This document shows positions 3,745-24,338 of a stretch of 27,357 bases of DNA, piece by piece (the first letter of the stretch is position 1; each line of letters begins with the position of its first letter). This DNA is from a virus, in IMG/VR virus record IMGVR_UViG_3300042261_000784, positions 1 to 27,357 of that record; one strand, given 5' to 3'. The position numbers and the translations under genes were made by a program. Below the pieces are notes generated by a model, which saw nothing but the letters and a program-made list of their open reading frames with translations, had not been told where the DNA came from and did not search any database.

Positions 3745-3787
3745 AATTCTATTTACAACATTAAAAATACTACTATTATATTTCGGT

Positions 3788-3796
3788 AGTAAATAC
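3788..3796 (+). promoter_or_regulatory. T4-late-like motif before the EF-hand/dockerin gene
   Basis: The plus strand reads AGTAAATACATTTTTAGGAG. The TAAATAC core is at 3790-3796 and the ribosome binding site AGGAGA at 3803-3808, with the ATG at 3816. The arrangement fits a late promoter with a leader of roughly 15 nt. Confidence 0.45.
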
Positions 3797-3815
3797 ATTT
3801 TTAGGAGAAACATAT

Positions 3816-4106
3816 ATGTTATGGTTATTATTAGCATTAGTCGCAGTTGGAGCATTCATTTGGTGGGTAAACCGTGATACTAACGGCGACGTAAACAATG
3901 ACGGCAATGTTGATTCAGCAGATGCAAAGGCTGCTGTTGACAAGGCTGTAGCAGTAGCAAAAGCCGCTGCCGATCTAAACAAAGACGGTAAGGTAACTGT
4001 TGCTGACGCAGTAGAAGCAGGCAAGAAGGTCAAGGCTGGAGCCAAGAAGGCTGCAGGTAAGGCCAAGGCTGCTGCTAAGAAGCCTAAACTAAAGGTTGCC
4101 AAGTAA
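3816..4106 (+). CDS. Membrane-anchored EF-hand/dockerin protein with histone-H1-like tail, 96 aa
   Basis: Three parts are visible. Residues 1-18 are a hydrophobic anchor (MLWLLLALVAVGAFIWWV). Residues about 25-64 hold two dockerin-type calcium loops, DVNNDGNVDSAD and DLNKDGKVTVAD, each with D1-x-N3-x-D5-G6 and D12 in place. Residues about 68-96 are Lys/Ala-rich with AAKK- and AGK-type repeats, like the tail of histone H1 or bacterial H1-like proteins. The start is set by AGGAGA 7 nt upstream. It is followed after 9 nt by the metallophosphoesterase-like gene on the same strand. A calcium-binding membrane protein with a basic tail could tether DNA or another polyanion to the inner membrane; this is inference. 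Confidence 0.85.
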   Translation: MLWLLLALVAVGAFIWWVNRDTNGDVNNDGNVDSADAKAAVDKAVAVAKAAADLNKDGKVTVADAVEAGKKVKAGAKKAAGKAKAAAKKPKLKVAK

Positions 4107-4118
4107 TTAATTACTGTG

Positions 4119-4805
4119 ATGGAAATAGGGTTCGACATACTAAGTGACCTACGTCTGGACCCAAATGAAACATTCAATTGGGAAAATAAGGCTACCAGTC
4201 TTTATTGTGTACTAGCCGGCAATGTCACACATAACATGCGTACATTGTGGCAGACTCTAGGCCATCTCAGTAAATTTTATCAAGGAATATTTTATATTCC
4301 TGGACCTTTAGAATATGTCAGTGGTGATGACGTTGAAAAACGTACTGCTGATATACAACAAATTGCTAGCAGAGTTCCTAATGTAGCGGTATTGCATCAA
4401 CATGTTGTAATCGTCGACGGTATCGCTATATTAGGCTGCAATGGTTGGGAAGATGAAAATCCTAACTTTCAACATTTACTTACTAGTTTGCGTTTAGATG
4501 ATATTGCCTATCTAAACAAAAGTATTGACAAACTACAAAGACATATTGATGTCAAAAAAATATTAGTTGTCAGTAGCGGAGTACCAAAGAAAGAATTATA
4601 TTTTGGATTAGTTCCGCCTATTGCTAAAGACAGAATAGATTTAGATTTTGCATTAGGTAATGATACTGAACACAAAGTATCACATTGGGCATTTGGTACA
4701 ACCGAAAAAATAGTTGACACTAAAATTAATAATGTCAACTATATTAATAACCCTTACTTTCGTAAGTTGCCCTATTGGGCAAAAAGAATTAGTATTACAG
4801 TTTAG
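4119..4805 (+). CDS. Metallophosphoesterase-fold protein with degraded active site
   Basis: The motif spacing follows calcineurin-like phosphoesterases, but nearly every metal ligand is changed (numbering from the ATG at 4119). The D-x-H block reads LSDLRLD (10-12 is DLR); the GD block reads LAGNV (N35); the GNHE block reads IPGPLEYV (62-65). The histidine block reads VVSSGVP (about 151-157), and the GHTH block reads FGTTE (193-196). The following IDTKINNVNYINNPY resembles the family's last strand and Asn-Pro turn. I infer a catalytically dead homologue kept as a binding or scaffold protein. GTG at 4116 is an alternative start. Its last 4 nt overlap the end of clpS on the other strand. Confidence 0.75.
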   Translation: MEIGFDILSDLRLDPNETFNWENKATSLYCVLAGNVTHNMRTLWQTLGHLSKFYQGIFYIPGPLEYVSGDDVEKRTADIQQIASRVPNVAVLHQHVVIVDGIAILGCNGWEDENPNFQHLLTSLRLDDIAYLNKSIDKLQRHIDVKKILVVSSGVPKKELYFGLVPPIAKDRIDLDFALGNDTEHKVSHWAFGTTEKIVDTKINNVNYINNPYFRKLPYWAKRISITV

Positions 4806-5116
4806 CGGCGTTCTGCTTCGACTTTTACTTGTAGTGGGAAACCCTTACTACGTGCTTCAAGTGTAACTTCAATGCCTTTCTGTTCTGCAATTTCATAAGG
4901 AAGAACTGCCACCACAGCACTACCCATATCATGAATGTCTTTTGTGATAGTACTTGCAGTATCGGGATTATAATTGAAATATTCAATTAATGTGCTTACC
5001 ACAAAATCCATTGTTGTTACATCATCATTGATGTAAATAATTTTGAAAAGGGGTGGTTCTTGTAGAGTAAGATTAGGTTTGATTTTACCCTTAGTTTCTG
5101 GATTTGGACTTGGCAT
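4802..5116 (-). CDS. clpS: ClpS, adaptor for N-degron substrates
   Basis: A 104-aa protein with the ClpS core. The N-degron pocket is present as IYINDDVTTMDFV (Asn30, Asp31, Asp32, Met36) and His62 in IHDMG. In bacteria ClpS binds proteins with N-terminal Leu, Phe, Tyr or Trp and hands them to ClpA-ClpP. The start ATG at 5116 is preceded by GAGGAAA; the longer reading to 5164 runs through a GC-rich hairpin and is unlikely. No ClpA is encoded in this window, so it may work with host ClpA or act on the phage ClpX. The stop codon overlaps the convergent plus-strand gene by 4 nt. Confidence 0.93.
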   Translation of the reverse strand: MPSPNPETKGKIKPNLTLQEPPLFKIIYINDDVTTMDFVVSTLIEYFNYNPDTASTITKDIHDMGSAVVAVLPYEIAEQKGIEVTLEARSKGFPLQVKVEAERR

Positions 5117-5134
5117 ATATTTCCTCTTTTTAGA

Positions 5135-5164
5135 GTGTTCGCGGCCACAACCGACCGCGAACAC
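5135..5164 (-). promoter_or_regulatory. GC-rich hairpin in the clpS leader
   Basis: GTGTTCGCGG (5135-5144) and CCGCGAACAC (5155-5164) pair perfectly over 10 bp around a 10-nt loop. It lies between hsp20 and clpS and ends 18 nt before the clpS ATG. It stands out in this AT-rich DNA. No U tract follows on either strand, so it is more likely an RNA processing, stability or translation-control element than a terminator. Confidence 0.6.
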
Positions 5165-5182
5165 ATTACACTTACTATAATA

Positions 5183-5638
5183 TTATTTATTGAAAGTAAT
5201 AGCAATCTTCTTGGGCTTCAATTCTTCTGGAATTTTACGCTCAAGTTTGATTGACAATATACCATTACTTACATCTGCACCAGTGACTTCCACGTGGTCA
5301 GCAAGAGTAAATGAACGATTGAAACTACGTGAACTAATACCACGATGTAGATATTCTACATTTTTTTCTAGTTCATCAAGGCTTTCAATCTTTTCACCTA
5401 CAATAGTAAGTTGGTTCTTATCGACAGTAACCGCAATATCACCATCACGGAACCCAGCAACGGCCAATTCAATGACAAAGGTATTGTCATCGTGTTTGAT
5501 TACGTTGTATGGGGGATAGTTTTGATTAGTCTGTTGTGCGCTAACTCGGGTAAGTTCATCAAAGATGTTATCAAAACCGACTGCGAATTTATGTATTGAC
5601 GGAATGTCAAAGGAACGTAGAGTTAATGTGTTTGTCAT
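5183..5638 (-). CDS. Small heat-shock protein, Hsp20/IbpA type
   Basis: A 151-aa alpha-crystallin chaperone. It has the YPPYNV motif (about 42-47) that opens the IbpA-type domain, then VIELAVAGF, a conserved HRGISSRSFNRSFTLADH block (about 93-110) and NGILSIKLERKIPEE. It ends with the C-terminal I-x-I anchor KKIAITFNK. Family members hold unfolding proteins for later refolding or degradation; Hsp20 genes are frequent in T4-like phages of aquatic bacteria. AAAAGGAG sets the start. The 5' leader carries a hairpin (5673-5700) and a GATAAATAC motif. Confidence 0.95.
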   Translation of the reverse strand: MTNTLTLRSFDIPSIHKFAVGFDNIFDELTRVSAQQTNQNYPPYNVIKHDDNTFVIELAVAGFRDGDIAVTVDKNQLTIVGEKIESLDELEKNVEYLHRGISSRSFNRSFTLADHVEVTGADVSNGILSIKLERKIPEELKPKKIAITFNK

Positions 5639-5748: not shown

Positions 5749-5970
5749 TTAGAAGTTTGTTTTAGGTAGATTCTGTTGAGCCAGATATTTTTTCCAACGT
5801 TTTTTGGCCATAGCCTTTTGAACCTTTTTCTTTACGCTGGGTTTAGTATAAGTTTGACGACCCTGTAATTCCATCAATAGGCCGCTCTCAGACACTTTCT
5901 TTTTGAATTTTCTTAGTGCCTTTTCTACATTTCCATCTTTTACTATTACTTTCCTACCTGATAAGTTCAT
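5749..5970 (-). CDS. rpsU: Ribosomal protein bS21
   Basis: A 73-aa homologue of the small-subunit protein S21. It begins with VIVKDGNVEKALRKFKKKV, typical of S21, followed by SGLLMEL and a highly basic helix (KKKVQKAMAKKRWKKYL). bS21 sits near the anti-Shine-Dalgarno on the 30S subunit and helps initiation. Phage S21 genes are documented in aquatic phages and may replace the host protein to favour phage mRNAs. The ATG overlaps the clpX stop as ATGA, so it is translated with clpX. Confidence 0.93.
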   Translation of the reverse strand: MNLSGRKVIVKDGNVEKALRKFKKKVSESGLLMELQGRQTYTKPSVKKKVQKAMAKKRWKKYLAQQNLPKTNF

Positions 5971-7160
5971 ACTAACGCTTTAGGATTCGTTATGAGATCC
6001 TGTGTAATATTTATCTTATCCAGTTTGTTTTTATTGTAGGTAGAAATATGGAACATATGGGGCATTAGTGCCTTTTCAATCTCAGTCTGTAACCCTCTAG
6101 CCCCGGTCTTTAGTTTTGTACAATTTTCAGCAATTTGGCTAATCGCTTCGTCTGTAAACGTAAGTTCAATACCGTCTAAACTAAACAGGTACTTATATTG
6201 GTCAATAAAGTTATTTTTCACCTTTGTAAGGACTTCAATGAGTTGTTCTTTAGTTAGATCCTCTACACTAATTGTTGTTGCAAAACGACCAACAAATTCA
6301 GGAATAAGACCAAACTTGGTCAAATCATCTGGTGTTACAAGGTCTAACTTTATATCTTCATTGGCGCTTTTTACTTCGGCGCTAAATCCAATAGTTGTAC
6401 CTTTTAGTCTAGTACGGATTAGGTCGCTAAGGCCAACAAATGCGCCTCCAGCGATAAAAAGTATGTTTTTTGTATCTACAGTCTGCATGTTACCATCAGG
6501 ATGCTTTCTGCCCCCATTTACAGGCAATCTACAAATTGTACCTTCTATCAGTTTCAATAACGCTTGCTGTACACCTTCGCCGCTAACGTCACGGGTGATG
6601 CTAGTGCTTTCGCTTTTACGTGCGATCTTGTCGATTTCGTCAACAAACACGATGCCCTTTTCAGCAAGTTTGATATCACCCTTAGCTGCCTGTAATAGCA
6701 TACTAATCATGCTTTCTACGTCATCACCCACATAGCCTGCTTCAGTCAAACTAGTAGCATCTGCCACTACAAAGGGTACACCAAGGAATTTCGCTACAGT
6801 CTTGGCAAGTAGTGTTTTACCTGATCCTGTAGGACCCATAAGCAATACGTTGCCCTTTTGTATCTCAAGATCCTTAGGCGGAGTCATAATTCGCTTATAG
6901 TGGTTAGCGATAGCAACGCTTAGAACCATTTTAGCGTCATGCTGACCAATAACGTGCTGGTCTAAATGCTCTTTGATTTCAATAGCACTAGCCTGTCTAA
7001 AACTGTTTTCTTCTTCGGTTTTAGTATCAGTTACAATAAGGTCTGAACATAATTTTGTACATCCATCACAAATTGCGACTTCACCGGATACAACTAATTT
7101 TTTTACTTGGTCTTTGTGATTACCACAAAAACTACAATGGTTTATTACATTTTCTGACAT
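5967..7160 (-). CDS. clpX: ClpX, AAA+ unfoldase
   Basis: A 397-aa protein with all ClpX parts. The N-terminal zinc domain has Cys9, Cys12, Cys31 and Cys34. Walker A is GPTGSGKT (109-116), Walker B is VFVDE (171-175), and the pore loop is GYVG (142-145). The RKH loop is GGRKHPDG (216-223), the IGF loop for ClpP docking is at 257-259, and sensor 2 is GARGL (353-357, Arg355). It unfolds proteins with ATP and feeds ClpP; an intact IGF loop argues that it works with ClpP and not alone. It is slightly shorter than E. coli ClpX. No Shine-Dalgarno is evident before the ATG. Confidence 0.97.
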   Translation of the reverse strand: MSENVINHCSFCGNHKDQVKKLVVSGEVAICDGCTKLCSDLIVTDTKTEEENSFRQASAIEIKEHLDQHVIGQHDAKMVLSVAIANHYKRIMTPPKDLEIQKGNVLLMGPTGSGKTLLAKTVAKFLGVPFVVADATSLTEAGYVGDDVESMISMLLQAAKGDIKLAEKGIVFVDEIDKIARKSESTSITRDVSGEGVQQALLKLIEGTICRLPVNGGRKHPDGNMQTVDTKNILFIAGGAFVGLSDLIRTRLKGTTIGFSAEVKSANEDIKLDLVTPDDLTKFGLIPEFVGRFATTISVEDLTKEQLIEVLTKVKNNFIDQYKYLFSLDGIELTFTDEAISQIAENCTKLKTGARGLQTEIEKALMPHMFHISTYNKNKLDKINITQDLITNPKALV

Positions 7161-21086: not shown

Positions 21087-21496
21087 CTAACTTCAGTACG
21101 ACCGTTACCCAAATCACGTTGACGTACAACACGAATGTCATCACGGCGTTTTTCTGGGTCAGCCATTTCTTGCTCGTAAACTTCTAGTGCGATATTACGG
21201 CATACAGTTTGGAACCAACGATCTACTATATCGTTGTCTGTATCATCTGGTCTAATTTTATAACCTTGCTTTATAAGGTTGGTCAGAAACTTATCATTCC
21301 AATCTAATTCAAAAGCACCGTTGTTGATATTGTTTGGGTCAATATCAACCTTGAGAATAGCAACATATGGTTCACCATTTTGTGTAGCTAATTCTTTGGC
21401 AGTTAGTTCCTTTTCCTTCTTCTGTGCCTTTTTGGATTTGGCTTCAGTTTTAGGAACTTCTGGCTTTTTGAAAAGATTCTTTAGTTTATCAAACAT
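21083..21496 (-). CDS. Conserved phage-type hypothetical protein, 137 aa
   Basis: A Lys/Glu-rich N-terminal tail (about 1-40, FDKLKNLFKKPEVPK onward) precedes a folded part with NGEPYVAILKVDIDP, GAFELDWNDKFLTNL, and DDTDNDIVDRWFQTVCRNIA. The end is QEMADPEKRRDDIR and GNGRTEVS. I associate this pattern with small proteins of T4-like aquatic phages, function unknown. The ATG at 21496 overlaps the uvdE stop by 8 nt (ATGTTTGA). Confidence 0.75.
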   Translation of the reverse strand: MFDKLKNLFKKPEVPKTEAKSKKAQKKEKELTAKELATQNGEPYVAILKVDIDPNNINNGAFELDWNDKFLTNLIKQGYKIRPDDTDNDIVDRWFQTVCRNIALEVYEQEMADPEKRRDDIRVVRQRDLGNGRTEVS

Positions 21497-22517
21497 AGTT
21501 CTTATATGTATCAAAAAGTCTCACGCTTGCGAGATTTTTTGCTTTGCTCTCGCACATGATATCAGCCCAACTCCAGTGTTCATGTGCCCAACGATTCATA
21601 GCATCATTGTAAAAGTAGTCACTGTGTGCGCGTAGTTTCTGTTTATTGTAACCACTTTCTATCAATCGCTGTAAATCATGTCGTTCGGTTGTATTGCGCT
21701 CAATTGTGCCATCTTCGCGTGATGTGCTAAAATGAATAACAGGGCGCACACCACGCCAACTGTCAATAACACGCTTGATACGATCATCATTGGGTTGTAT
21801 GTATTCACCTGTCTTGATCCAATGATGATGAATGTCTAGTACTAGACCCAGATGTCCAGCCAATTCGAGGCTTGATTCGATCCCCCAGCTGATTTCGTCG
21901 TTTTCGATTGTGATGCTGTTTCGCGCTTCGGGGGTAAGTCTGCCGAGAATGTCGATGATACCGGCTGGACCTTTGCGACCACTGATGTGGACATTGATTT
22001 TGATGTCCTGAAATTGTTTACCGTACCCCATCCAACGGGCCATATCCACATGATATTCAAACTCCTCTATACTCTTATTTACTACCTCAGGGCGATCACT
22101 TGCTAGAACAACAAACTGATCGGGATGAAACGACAACCGAACATCATTGGCGCGGGCAGTCTCGCCGATAGGAGCCATCCAACGTTCCAAACTGTCCTGT
22201 ACTTCACGCGATTTCCAAAAGTACTTGTACTCGTCCATAGTATAGAAACTGAACATATCGCTAGTCAATCGTAGCATACGCAGTCCAGGCTCAAGTGCTG
22301 CGACCTTCTTGACTAGATTATGTGTATTGGTAATGTTGCGTTTAGCAACTTCCATTAGTTTTTCTTCAACGATGCGTGGGCTACTTTGTCGCTTTGCCCA
22401 TGCGTGGGTAGTACCACCAGTGTTGAACCCGTCAGCACTAGCGATCTCACCTTTCTTATTGATTTCTGCCCATTTACATGCGAAACCAATGCGTTTGATA
22501 TTACTGTTGAATGACAT
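21489..22517 (-). CDS. uvsE: UV-damage endonuclease, UvdE/UVDE family
   Basis: A 342-aa TIM-barrel nuclease. Recognised motifs are RIGFACKW at the start, RMLRLTSDMF (about 79-88), FHPDQFVVL (about 128-136), KINVHISG, ITIENDE, and VLDIHHHW with the metal-binding histidines, then HFSTSRE and AHSDYF. The family nicks DNA 5' of UV photoproducts and other lesions without needing UvrABC. It protects phage genomes exposed to light, in line with a surface-water setting. The ATG lies only 9 nt after a strong -10, so the mRNA is probably leaderless; no Shine-Dalgarno is present. Confidence 0.93.
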   Translation of the reverse strand: MSFNSNIKRIGFACKWAEINKKGEIASADGFNTGGTTHAWAKRQSSPRIVEEKLMEVAKRNITNTHNLVKKVAALEPGLRMLRLTSDMFSFYTMDEYKYFWKSREVQDSLERWMAPIGETARANDVRLSFHPDQFVVLASDRPEVVNKSIEEFEYHVDMARWMGYGKQFQDIKINVHISGRKGPAGIIDILGRLTPEARNSITIENDEISWGIESSLELAGHLGLVLDIHHHWIKTGEYIQPNDDRIKRVIDSWRGVRPVIHFSTSREDGTIERNTTERHDLQRLIESGYNKQKLRAHSDYFYNDAMNRWAHEHWSWADIMCESKAKNLASVRLFDTYKNYV

Positions 22518-22559: not shown

Positions 22560-24338
22560 ATGGATATCCGTAAAATTTTAGATATAGTTACTGAAGCAGA
22601 AAAGCCACTAGCAAAGGGCATGAAGGTGTTGAGCCTAGCCCAATTCTTACAACAAAGCGGTGTTGAACCAGCAAAAGGTGAAGAGGAAACGGTCAACGAA
22701 TTGAGTCCTAAAACCAAAAAGAGTTATAGTGCTGCTGCCAAACTTGATAAGAAATATAATGATAACAATATAGACAAGGCCAAGAGAATGAGCCAAGAGC
22801 AGCCACATAAAAAGGCTGAATGGGAAGATGAAATAGAGTTTCTAAAATCGGTCAACGCCAAGCGTGATCGCGGCTTGAAGAGAGCAGGTGTGGCGGAAGG
22901 CTCCGAGGATTCGTTCAAGGCATCACACAACGATGCTGTTGAACAAGCAAAATCAGAACACGGTGATCCAGCCAAACACGAATATAAGTTTGATAATATG
23001 AGTGGTCGTCATGGTGCCCACAATTCATACTTACATTATCCAGACAAAAAGGTCACCGTCAACACTCAAATGTATAAATCCGGACCAGCACATAATGTAT
23101 TTGTATCACGCGGTAAGCAAGGTGTGGCGGAAGGCGCGCCTGAACTGTTGAAGAAAGAAATGCCATTAGTTCGTCATATTGATAAAATATTAGCAGGACA
23201 TGGTTATAAGAAAGGTACACCAGAATACGATGAACATTTCAAACAGGCAATGTCTTACCTTCGCAAGTTTGGAAATATAGATCTAATCAATAAACAAATA
23301 GATGAAGCAGAAAAACTAGGTGGTGTGTCAGCAAGATCATTACCAAAAGATGAATTGGCAAGTTATCTTGACAGAATTATTGGCAAGAGTAAAGAAAAGA
23401 CAGACAAATATAAACTTCCATACATCCATAGTAGCAATATTCCTATCGTCAATGACGATGGTCAGAAATATGATCTACAAAAGTTAGCAGCAGCATTCAG
23501 CGAACGCCCAACTAAAATTCTAAAGCAAAATGAAAAGATGCAGCATAGTGATGGTACTAGCAGCCAATTCTATAATGTTGGACTACCAGCACTAAAAGGA
23601 TTGGCAATAGATGAAGATACTGGCGAGTTCGTAGTTATTGACACATGCCCAGGTGCTGGAGCATGTAAACTAGTATGCTATGCCATGAAAGGCGGATATG
23701 TACAATGGAAGGCAAGCAGCCTTGGTCAAACAAAACTATTGAACTTCTTATACAATGATCCAGATGGATTCATGGGTATGCTAGAAAGTGAGATTGCTGG
23801 TTATGAAGCAAAGAACAAGAAAAAGAATATCAAGACAATCATACGCTGGCATGATGCCGGTGACTTCTTTAGCCCACAATATCTAGCAAAAGCATTTGAT
23901 CTAGCAAAGAAATTCCCAGATGTTGATTTCTATGCTTACACTAAACTAGCAGGTGTGGCACAGGGTGAAAAACCAGACAACTTCAAAATCAATTTCAGTG
24001 CTGGCGCACAACCAAGTCAAGAAAAGAAGATTGACTTTCAAAAGACAAAGAATAGTCGTATAGTTCCTAAAGAATTATTCAGTGACGCACTTGAGAAAGA
24101 TGCTAGTGGTAAGTGGCAGTACACAAGCCCACAAGCAGAAAAGGCTGTCAAAGATCGTATGGCTATCAAGTATAGCCTAGATCCAAAATCAGTTATCACT
24201 TATGATGAGATGATGAAGATTCCAGTTGATAAAAGCCCAGATGCTAAAGGCAAGTGGAATGTTATCGTCAAGCCAGGTGACGGCGATGATGCTGCAAACC
24301 GTAATGATGTATTGAGCAGTTTACTATTGATACATTGA
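22560..24338 (+). CDS. Modular protein: capsid-targeting-like peptide, GVAEG-joined modules, GP88-like domain
   Basis: A 592-aa mosaic. Residues 1-15 (MDIRKILDIVTEAEK) form an amphipathic helix ending in VTE then A, like T4 capsid-targeting peptides. Residues about 47-109 are a charged helical module (NELSPKTKKSYSAAAKL to AKRDRGLKRA). GVAEG (110-114) follows, then a small module (DSFKASHNDAVEQ to HNVFVSRGKQ), a second GVAEG (188-192) and a helical module. From about 265 lies a domain like mycobacteriophage gp88 (GP88 family) with CPGAGACKLVCYA (Cys363, Cys369, Cys373) and RWHDAGDFF (429-437). The Cys set could bind zinc or an iron-sulfur cluster. The next plus-strand gene begins 1 nt after. 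Confidence 0.8.
   Translation: MDIRKILDIVTEAEKPLAKGMKVLSLAQFLQQSGVEPAKGEEETVNELSPKTKKSYSAAAKLDKKYNDNNIDKAKRMSQEQPHKKAEWEDEIEFLKSVNAKRDRGLKRAGVAEGSEDSFKASHNDAVEQAKSEHGDPAKHEYKFDNMSGRHGAHNSYLHYPDKKVTVNTQMYKSGPAHNVFVSRGKQGVAEGAPELLKKEMPLVRHIDKILAGHGYKKGTPEYDEHFKQAMSYLRKFGNIDLINKQIDEAEKLGGVSARSLPKDELASYLDRIIGKSKEKTDKYKLPYIHSSNIPIVNDDGQKYDLQKLAAAFSERPTKILKQNEKMQHSDGTSSQFYNVGLPALKGLAIDEDTGEFVVIDTCPGAGACKLVCYAMKGGYVQWKASSLGQTKLLNFLYNDPDGFMGMLESEIAGYEAKNKKKNIKTIIRWHDAGDFFSPQYLAKAFDLAKKFPDVDFYAYTKLAGVAQGEKPDNFKINFSAGAQPSQEKKIDFQKTKNSRIVPKELFSDALEKDASGKWQYTSPQAEKAVKDRMAIKYSLDPKSVITYDEMMKIPVDKSPDAKGKWNVIVKPGDGDDAANRNDVLSSLLLIH

Follow-up and report, generated by a model that had tools for sequence, protein, structure and literature searches.

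What do two GVAEG pentapeptides, written in the same 15 nucleotides, do between the unrelated small modules of one viral protein, and why is their DNA so uniform? The question is raised by a 592-aa open reading frame (ORF) of the IMG/VR record IMGVR_UViG_3300042261_000784, whose positions 1 to 27,357, the whole stretch of 27,357 nucleotides analysed here, are called the window. The initial annotation read this ORF as a possible polyprotein cut by the phage prohead protease, with a capsid-targeting-like leader and a joint that spreads as a short mobile linker. Its parts are the following, all on the + strand, with a slash for a predicted cut:

22560 to 24338, + strand: putative polyprotein ORF of 592 aa, made of a leader, three modules and a GP88 domain
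22560 to 22595, + strand: capsid-targeting-like leader MDIRKILDIVTE, aa 1-12, predicted cut after E12
22692 to 22700, + strand: VNE, aa 45-47, a weak candidate from sequence only for an extra hydrophobic-x-E site ahead of module A
22701 to 22886, + strand: module A, aa 48-109, predicted to be mostly helical; the relatives L244/L245 are without it
22887 to 22901, + strand: joint 1, GVAE/G, aa 110-114, encoded by exactly GGTGTGGCGGAAGGC
22902 to 23120, + strand: cassette B, aa 115-187, swapped in L243, missing in L242 and present in L156
23116 to 23135, + strand: joint 2 as the full 20-nt core AGCAAGGTGTGGCGGAAGGC, from the conserved-core comparison
23121 to 23135, + strand: GVAEG of joint 2, aa 188-192, encoded by exactly GGTGTGGCGGAAGGC
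23136 to 23297, + strand: cassette C, aa 193-246, recurring in L043, L208 and L019/L107
23298 to 23306, + strand: IDE/, aa 247-249, the second hydrophobic-x-E site ahead of GP88, with a counterpart in 58/60 distinct GP88 homologues
23307 to 24335, + strand: GP88 part, predicted mature C-terminal product, aa 250-592 (Pfam, model)

GP88 (PF17338; E 5e-32, aa 324-501) is the sole Pfam domain found in the ORF and, in an AlphaFold2 model built from 33 sequences (mean pLDDT 66), the GP88 part is the best-folded region, while each joint falls within a loop of low confidence (aa 108-122 and 170-198) that separates structured modules. A fold search with the 592-aa model returned nothing significant, the best match being the radical-SAM protein NifB (E 0.076). 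The GP88 region (window 23529-24335) carries a conserved Cys cluster, CPGAGxCK..C, and a UvdE UV-endonuclease gene (21489-22517, - strand) is divergent to the polyprotein gene. As the initial annotation stated, one and the same 15-mer encodes both pentapeptides and an N-terminal VTE/A is present (aa 10-13); its layout of 15-nt joints is amended in that the conserved DNA measures ~20 nt and the third module ends at IDE/A (aa 247-250, 23298-23309).

The window holds only these two matches to GGTGTGGCGGAAGGC even at up to 3 mismatches, against 0.17 on average in the shuffled window. Scans of IMG/VR for the exact 15-mer and for KQGVAEG in any codons each gave at least 120 stretches, and ~190 loci provide at least 499 distinct joint copies (up to 3 mismatches), none of them off frame, numbers that count sequences and not separate events, as IMG/VR contigs are not independent. 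The shuffles and the 499 listed copies rule out a chance origin of the joints. Moreover, 156 of 168 exact 15-mers (in the loci fetched, among the matches listed) read GVAEG in the longest open frame, and the remaining ones, outside the GVAEG frame, resemble chance matches in unrelated genes. The joint-bearing proteins are mostly long mosaics of up to ~six modules, in which the modules between joints are unrelated to each other and have a median length of 75 aa, so that GVAEG and its code do recur at module borders in related phages, where they had been predicted.

The uniformity of the joint extends to its codons. Specifically, the codon-blind KQGVAEG joints use GGT in 130/140, GTG in 119/140, GCG in 124/140 and GAA in 129/140 cases (among the matches listed), against background shares within the amino acid of 0.44, 0.24, 0.12 and 0.80; the GCG codon, suspected from the start to be atypical, is indeed so, accounting for 11.6% of the Ala codons of joint-bearing ORFs. 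The GCG and GTG counts rule out the joint as a codon-level accident of the protein motif. The conserved DNA of ~20 nt, A(G)CAAGGTGTGGCGGAAGGC, falls near background at the following base, and the codon ahead of GGT is CAA, GAA or AAA in 447/499 copies (among the matches listed), which indicates that its bases are kept although the residue varies among Q, E and K. Across 257 Gb of genomes from bacteria and archaea, the exact 20-mer is matched 3 times, and a blastn search with a 30-nt joint query against INPHARED gave chance-level partial matches only, so that a cultured source of the joint was not found there. Two other causes of the conservation were considered and set aside: a G-quadruplex or other DNA structure behind GTG and GCG, considered since GGTGTGGCGGAAGG has the form GG-N3-GG-N1-GG-N2-GG, is unsupported because substitutions are more frequent at the GTG and GCG wobble sites than at positions 2 and 11, and an internal ribosome-binding site is ruled out by the lack of a fixed downstream start and by conservation that stops at +14.

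Such a joint could primarily act at the DNA level, for instance as the sequence recognised by a free-standing homing endonuclease or a recombinase that would mobilise cassettes, with the protein motif being secondary. The bases kept ahead of GGT would agree with this explanation, as would the relation of joints to their modules: joints differ by 6.7% per base where modules are 0.6% diverged and by 11% where modules are 23% diverged (50% at third positions), hence joint identity is independent of module age, and joints of different contigs are as alike as those of the same contig, which also means that genome-specific homogenisation of joints is not seen. However, the synonymous sites of the joint do decay, mainly by transitions, in a manner that points to selection on the protein pattern, chance appears to account for the copies that are not in the GVAEG frame, and no enzyme has been identified for such a site; we consider a primary DNA function quite improbable.

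Cassette exchange, on the other hand, is clear from the sequences, in which homology blocks begin and end at joints. In blastn comparisons among joint ORFs, left block ends fall at -6 to 0 of the joint in 210/915 cases and right block ends at +12 to +18 in 226/735, while random positions receive ~1.5% of block ends per bin. Among near-identical GP88 proteins, the swap and the absence of cassettes are base-precise: L243 has a different cassette between the same two joints, L242 is missing the cassette and retains a single GVDEG. The relatives L244/L245, devoid of module A, read EDVAEG at the joint. Moreover, cassette B recurs at 80% aa identity in an unrelated protein of L156, flanked on both sides by an exact GVAEG joint, and cassette C has a joint on each side in L043, L208 and L019/L107, where no GP88 domain was detected. 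The notion of a spreading short linker is to be modified: the unit seen to move is the joint-bounded cassette. Exchange between like joints would favour the common joint form, and a dedicated enzyme is possible, the analysis having identified none that acts on the joint. In a fuller version of the latter idea, which we regard as rather unlikely, a shared standard 20-nt joint would be both protease site and exchange seam and would be kept uniform by a dedicated process, such as the cutting of joints by a free-standing endonuclease, which would promote the insertion of cassettes, resulting in an integrase-free, in-frame cassette system for injected proteins across many phage lineages.

The same clear exchange, together with the low-confidence modelled loops around both joints, would also suit a flexible, uncut spacer of a multidomain protein, uniform because cassettes recombine through it. 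A spacer, however, has no need for Glu over Asp nor for a hydrophobic Val kept while Gly and Ala drift, and this is how the diverged copies behave. Among the matches listed, the P1 Glu is retained in 492/499 copies, and its wobble position shows 32 changes of GAA to GAG and none of A to C or T, that is, none to Asp (P = 4e-6 when transversions make up a share of 0.32 as they do at other wobble sites, a value that assumes independence of the copies, which is only partly true). In the same matches, P3 is Val in 467/499 joints, its codon having 31 first-base changes, which give Met or Leu, but a single second-base change, and P4, P2 and P1' vary (Asp, Ser, Ala, Glu and others). The pattern that decaying joints retain in their sequences is hydrophobic-x-Glu. 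In T4, gp21 cleaves after L/I-X-E, and a leader (CTS) with Asp at position 10 allows targeting and blocks processing (PMC9026906), with which the Glu-not-Asp constraint of the joints fits. Of the T4 rule to which VAE-G was proposed to conform, the joints keep the Glu and a hydrophobic P3, but Val is outside the T4 L/I-x-E.

The spacer explanation is further weakened by the leaders that bear the same motif. Specifically, [LIVMF]xE[AGSNTDQ] lies within aa 5-22 in 74/123 joint ORFs against 251/1326 neighbouring ORFs (p = 2e-21), and Asp or Lys versions of the motif have no enrichment in the same test, in line with the capsid-targeting-like leader recognised at the outset; a clear leader is present in 60% of joint ORFs only and start choice is uncertain. 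Examples are MRAQEFITE/G, MKIIELLSE/S and MRATEFIIE/G. In GP88 homologues, 57/60 distinct N-termini have a hydrophobic-x-E at aa 5-15 (P3 Ile in 34, Val in 14 and Leu in 9), a figure biased by start codons picked partly by the leader motif, and the second hydrophobic-x-E site ahead of GP88 has Val at P3 in 23/58 cases. Module-free relatives consist of a leader, ~35 aa, a second hydrophobic-x-E (VDE/A, LDE/A, MAE/A) and GP88, compared with which the window ORF carries three modules, placed after the leader region and ahead of the second site. Still other relatives have inserts bounded by hydrophobic-x-E sites without GVAEG DNA, namely a different insert of ~119 aa in L267/L269 and three more in L313-L315, each of them so flanked, which implies that the rule still applies at the protein level when the joint DNA is missing and speaks against a mere spacer. 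Such a spacer is therefore unlikely, if worth keeping in view.

The protease that would read these sites is to be sought in relatives, as the window contig, a 27-kb fragment, has no recognised head genes and, in the genes examined, carries no gp21 or gp23. Among 45 long contigs with joint loci, gp23 and gp21 each occur in 11, always together; 7 GP88 contigs have both. The propeptide border expected for gp23 reads L-x-E followed by N, S, A or T in 18/18 proteins, with Leu at P3 throughout, and most of them also carry upstream L-x-E sites (e.g. LLE/G). The prohead protease and the capsid sites called for by the initial annotation are thus found in relatives, on 18 contigs with gp21 and an L-x-E gp23, but not on the window contig. 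The remaining contigs without gp21 and gp23 may be fragments or carriers of other head genes. G048, a relative that carries gp21, gp23 and a GP88 homologue, shares with the window an RNase H of 75% identity and a ligase of 57% identity. In G052/G063 (L331, L332, L345), gp23 matches are split over unusually long open frames of 612-615 aa, and in G052 the gp20 and gp21 matches are split likewise, in frames of 1365 and 595 aa, which suggests inserted domains or inteins.

The window itself encodes ClpP, ClpS, Hsp20 and ClpX (1038-1634, 4802-5164, 5183-5638 and 5967-7160, all - strand), a near-complete Clp protease set with an N-end-rule adaptor in one stretch of a phage contig. Long ORFs also overlap on opposite strands at 3776-4177 (-) and 3816-4106 (+), the latter with a resemblance, by eye, to dockerin/EF-hand-like repeats and a Lys/Ala-rich tail. 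The window ClpP was considered as a head protease, its PHROG matches being ClpP-like maturation proteases; an ordinary Clp set is more likely because ClpX and ClpS accompany it. The polyprotein could in principle be cut by this Clp set or by a host protease instead of gp21. Clp proteases, however, are processive and have no known specificity for hydrophobic-x-Glu, and relatives have gp21 with a matching gp23 border, which makes processing by another protease highly improbable.

Cultured phages provide a link to virions. Stretches homologous to the joint-bearing polyprotein L047 occur in 367 records of cultured phages, which are nearly all T4-like cyanophages, and five S-CREM2 proteins with homologues among joint-family proteins (gp111, gp137, gp154, gp156 and gp160) were detected by mass spectrometry in the virion of this T4-like cyanophage, in a proteome with modest peptide counts, several of them low, and in which regulatory-type proteins were perhaps not separated from virions during purification (PMC10665884). 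The N-termini of gp154 (MKNFSSFLTE/A) and gp136 (MQTFSMFFSE/D) carry leader-like sites, and the homologous modules in S-CREM2 are linked by sequences other than the GVAEG joint. The virion-detected multi-module protein gp160 (L324 17842-18735) holds a copy of a gp23 segment that sits just past the expected cut site, reading GATGFTGAAAPEGPVAGYDP where gp23 has ADGFTGAAAPGGPNAGFDP.

A packaged, gp21-cut polyprotein of interchangeable cassettes is probably the right reading of these sequences and the best one available; the initial interpretation as a whole is partly supported. We infer that the 592-aa ORF would be a precursor of internal head proteins, whose 12-residue leader would direct the entire chain to the core of the prohead. 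The prohead protease gp21 (S77), cutting after hydrophobic-x-Glu, would take off the leader and then cleave GVAE/G, GVAE/G and IDE/A; the products A, B and C and the GP88 protein would stay in the head and be ejected with the DNA. The joint would double as a seam for module exchange, where like joints may allow cassettes to be inserted, deleted or swapped in frame, by template switching or homologous recombination, and each exchanged cassette would always keep a cut site on both sides.

The internal proteins of T4 (IPI, IPII, IPIII) and Alt are CTS-targeted and cut by gp21 (Peptidase S77), and the proteins described here resemble them in the short leader ending in hydrophobic-x-E, the predicted hydrophobic-x-E cut rule, the presence of gp21 and gp23 (in relatives) and the fast-changing cargo. 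They differ in that T4 has one cargo per gene, whereas here a chain has up to ~six modules, internal sites and a near-invariant joint. The multi-module basic/Cys-rich proteins of Kyanoviridae, such as S-CREM2 gp137 and gp160, share homologous modules, with 45-84% aa identity among the matches listed, and the GVAEG joint was not seen in the cyanophage multi-module sequences examined. Polyvalent proteins (Iyer et al. 2017, PMC5512222) likewise combine several unrelated domains per chain, are mosaic and are predicted to be injected with DNA; in the available text of that study, auto-processing by built-in peptidase domains is proposed, no shared DNA-level joint is described and domains come from a described set of 131. 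Pfam recognises few joint-protein modules (weak GNAT, DUF5872, DUF7230). Head proteins of phiKZ and SPN3US undergo A/S-x-E cuts, at multiple sites after Glu, by a gp21-related protease, and in the available text on them (PMC5694885) the cuts remove propeptides and cassette arrays are not described. Integron cassettes, which depend on an integrase and attC hairpins, are an analogy only, the joint here being ~20 nt and in frame. In the literature, the text string GVAEG appears in one unrelated paper only, and searches that paired capsid targeting with either polyproteins or the shuffling of domains gave no description of such a system. The jointed polyprotein is a new variation on T4 internal-protein biology for which no published description was found.

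Many uncultivated T4-like phages share and swap these modules, which points to a mix-and-match protein loading of the head. If this is true, new head cargo could be added without building a new leader, cut points would be predicted to the residue, and one short sequence would flag many small unnamed proteins in metagenomes that are probably delivered early in infection. By the example of T4 IPI (anti-restriction) and Alt, the cargo may include anti-defence and takeover proteins, and the contents of T4-like heads would become searchable by sequence.
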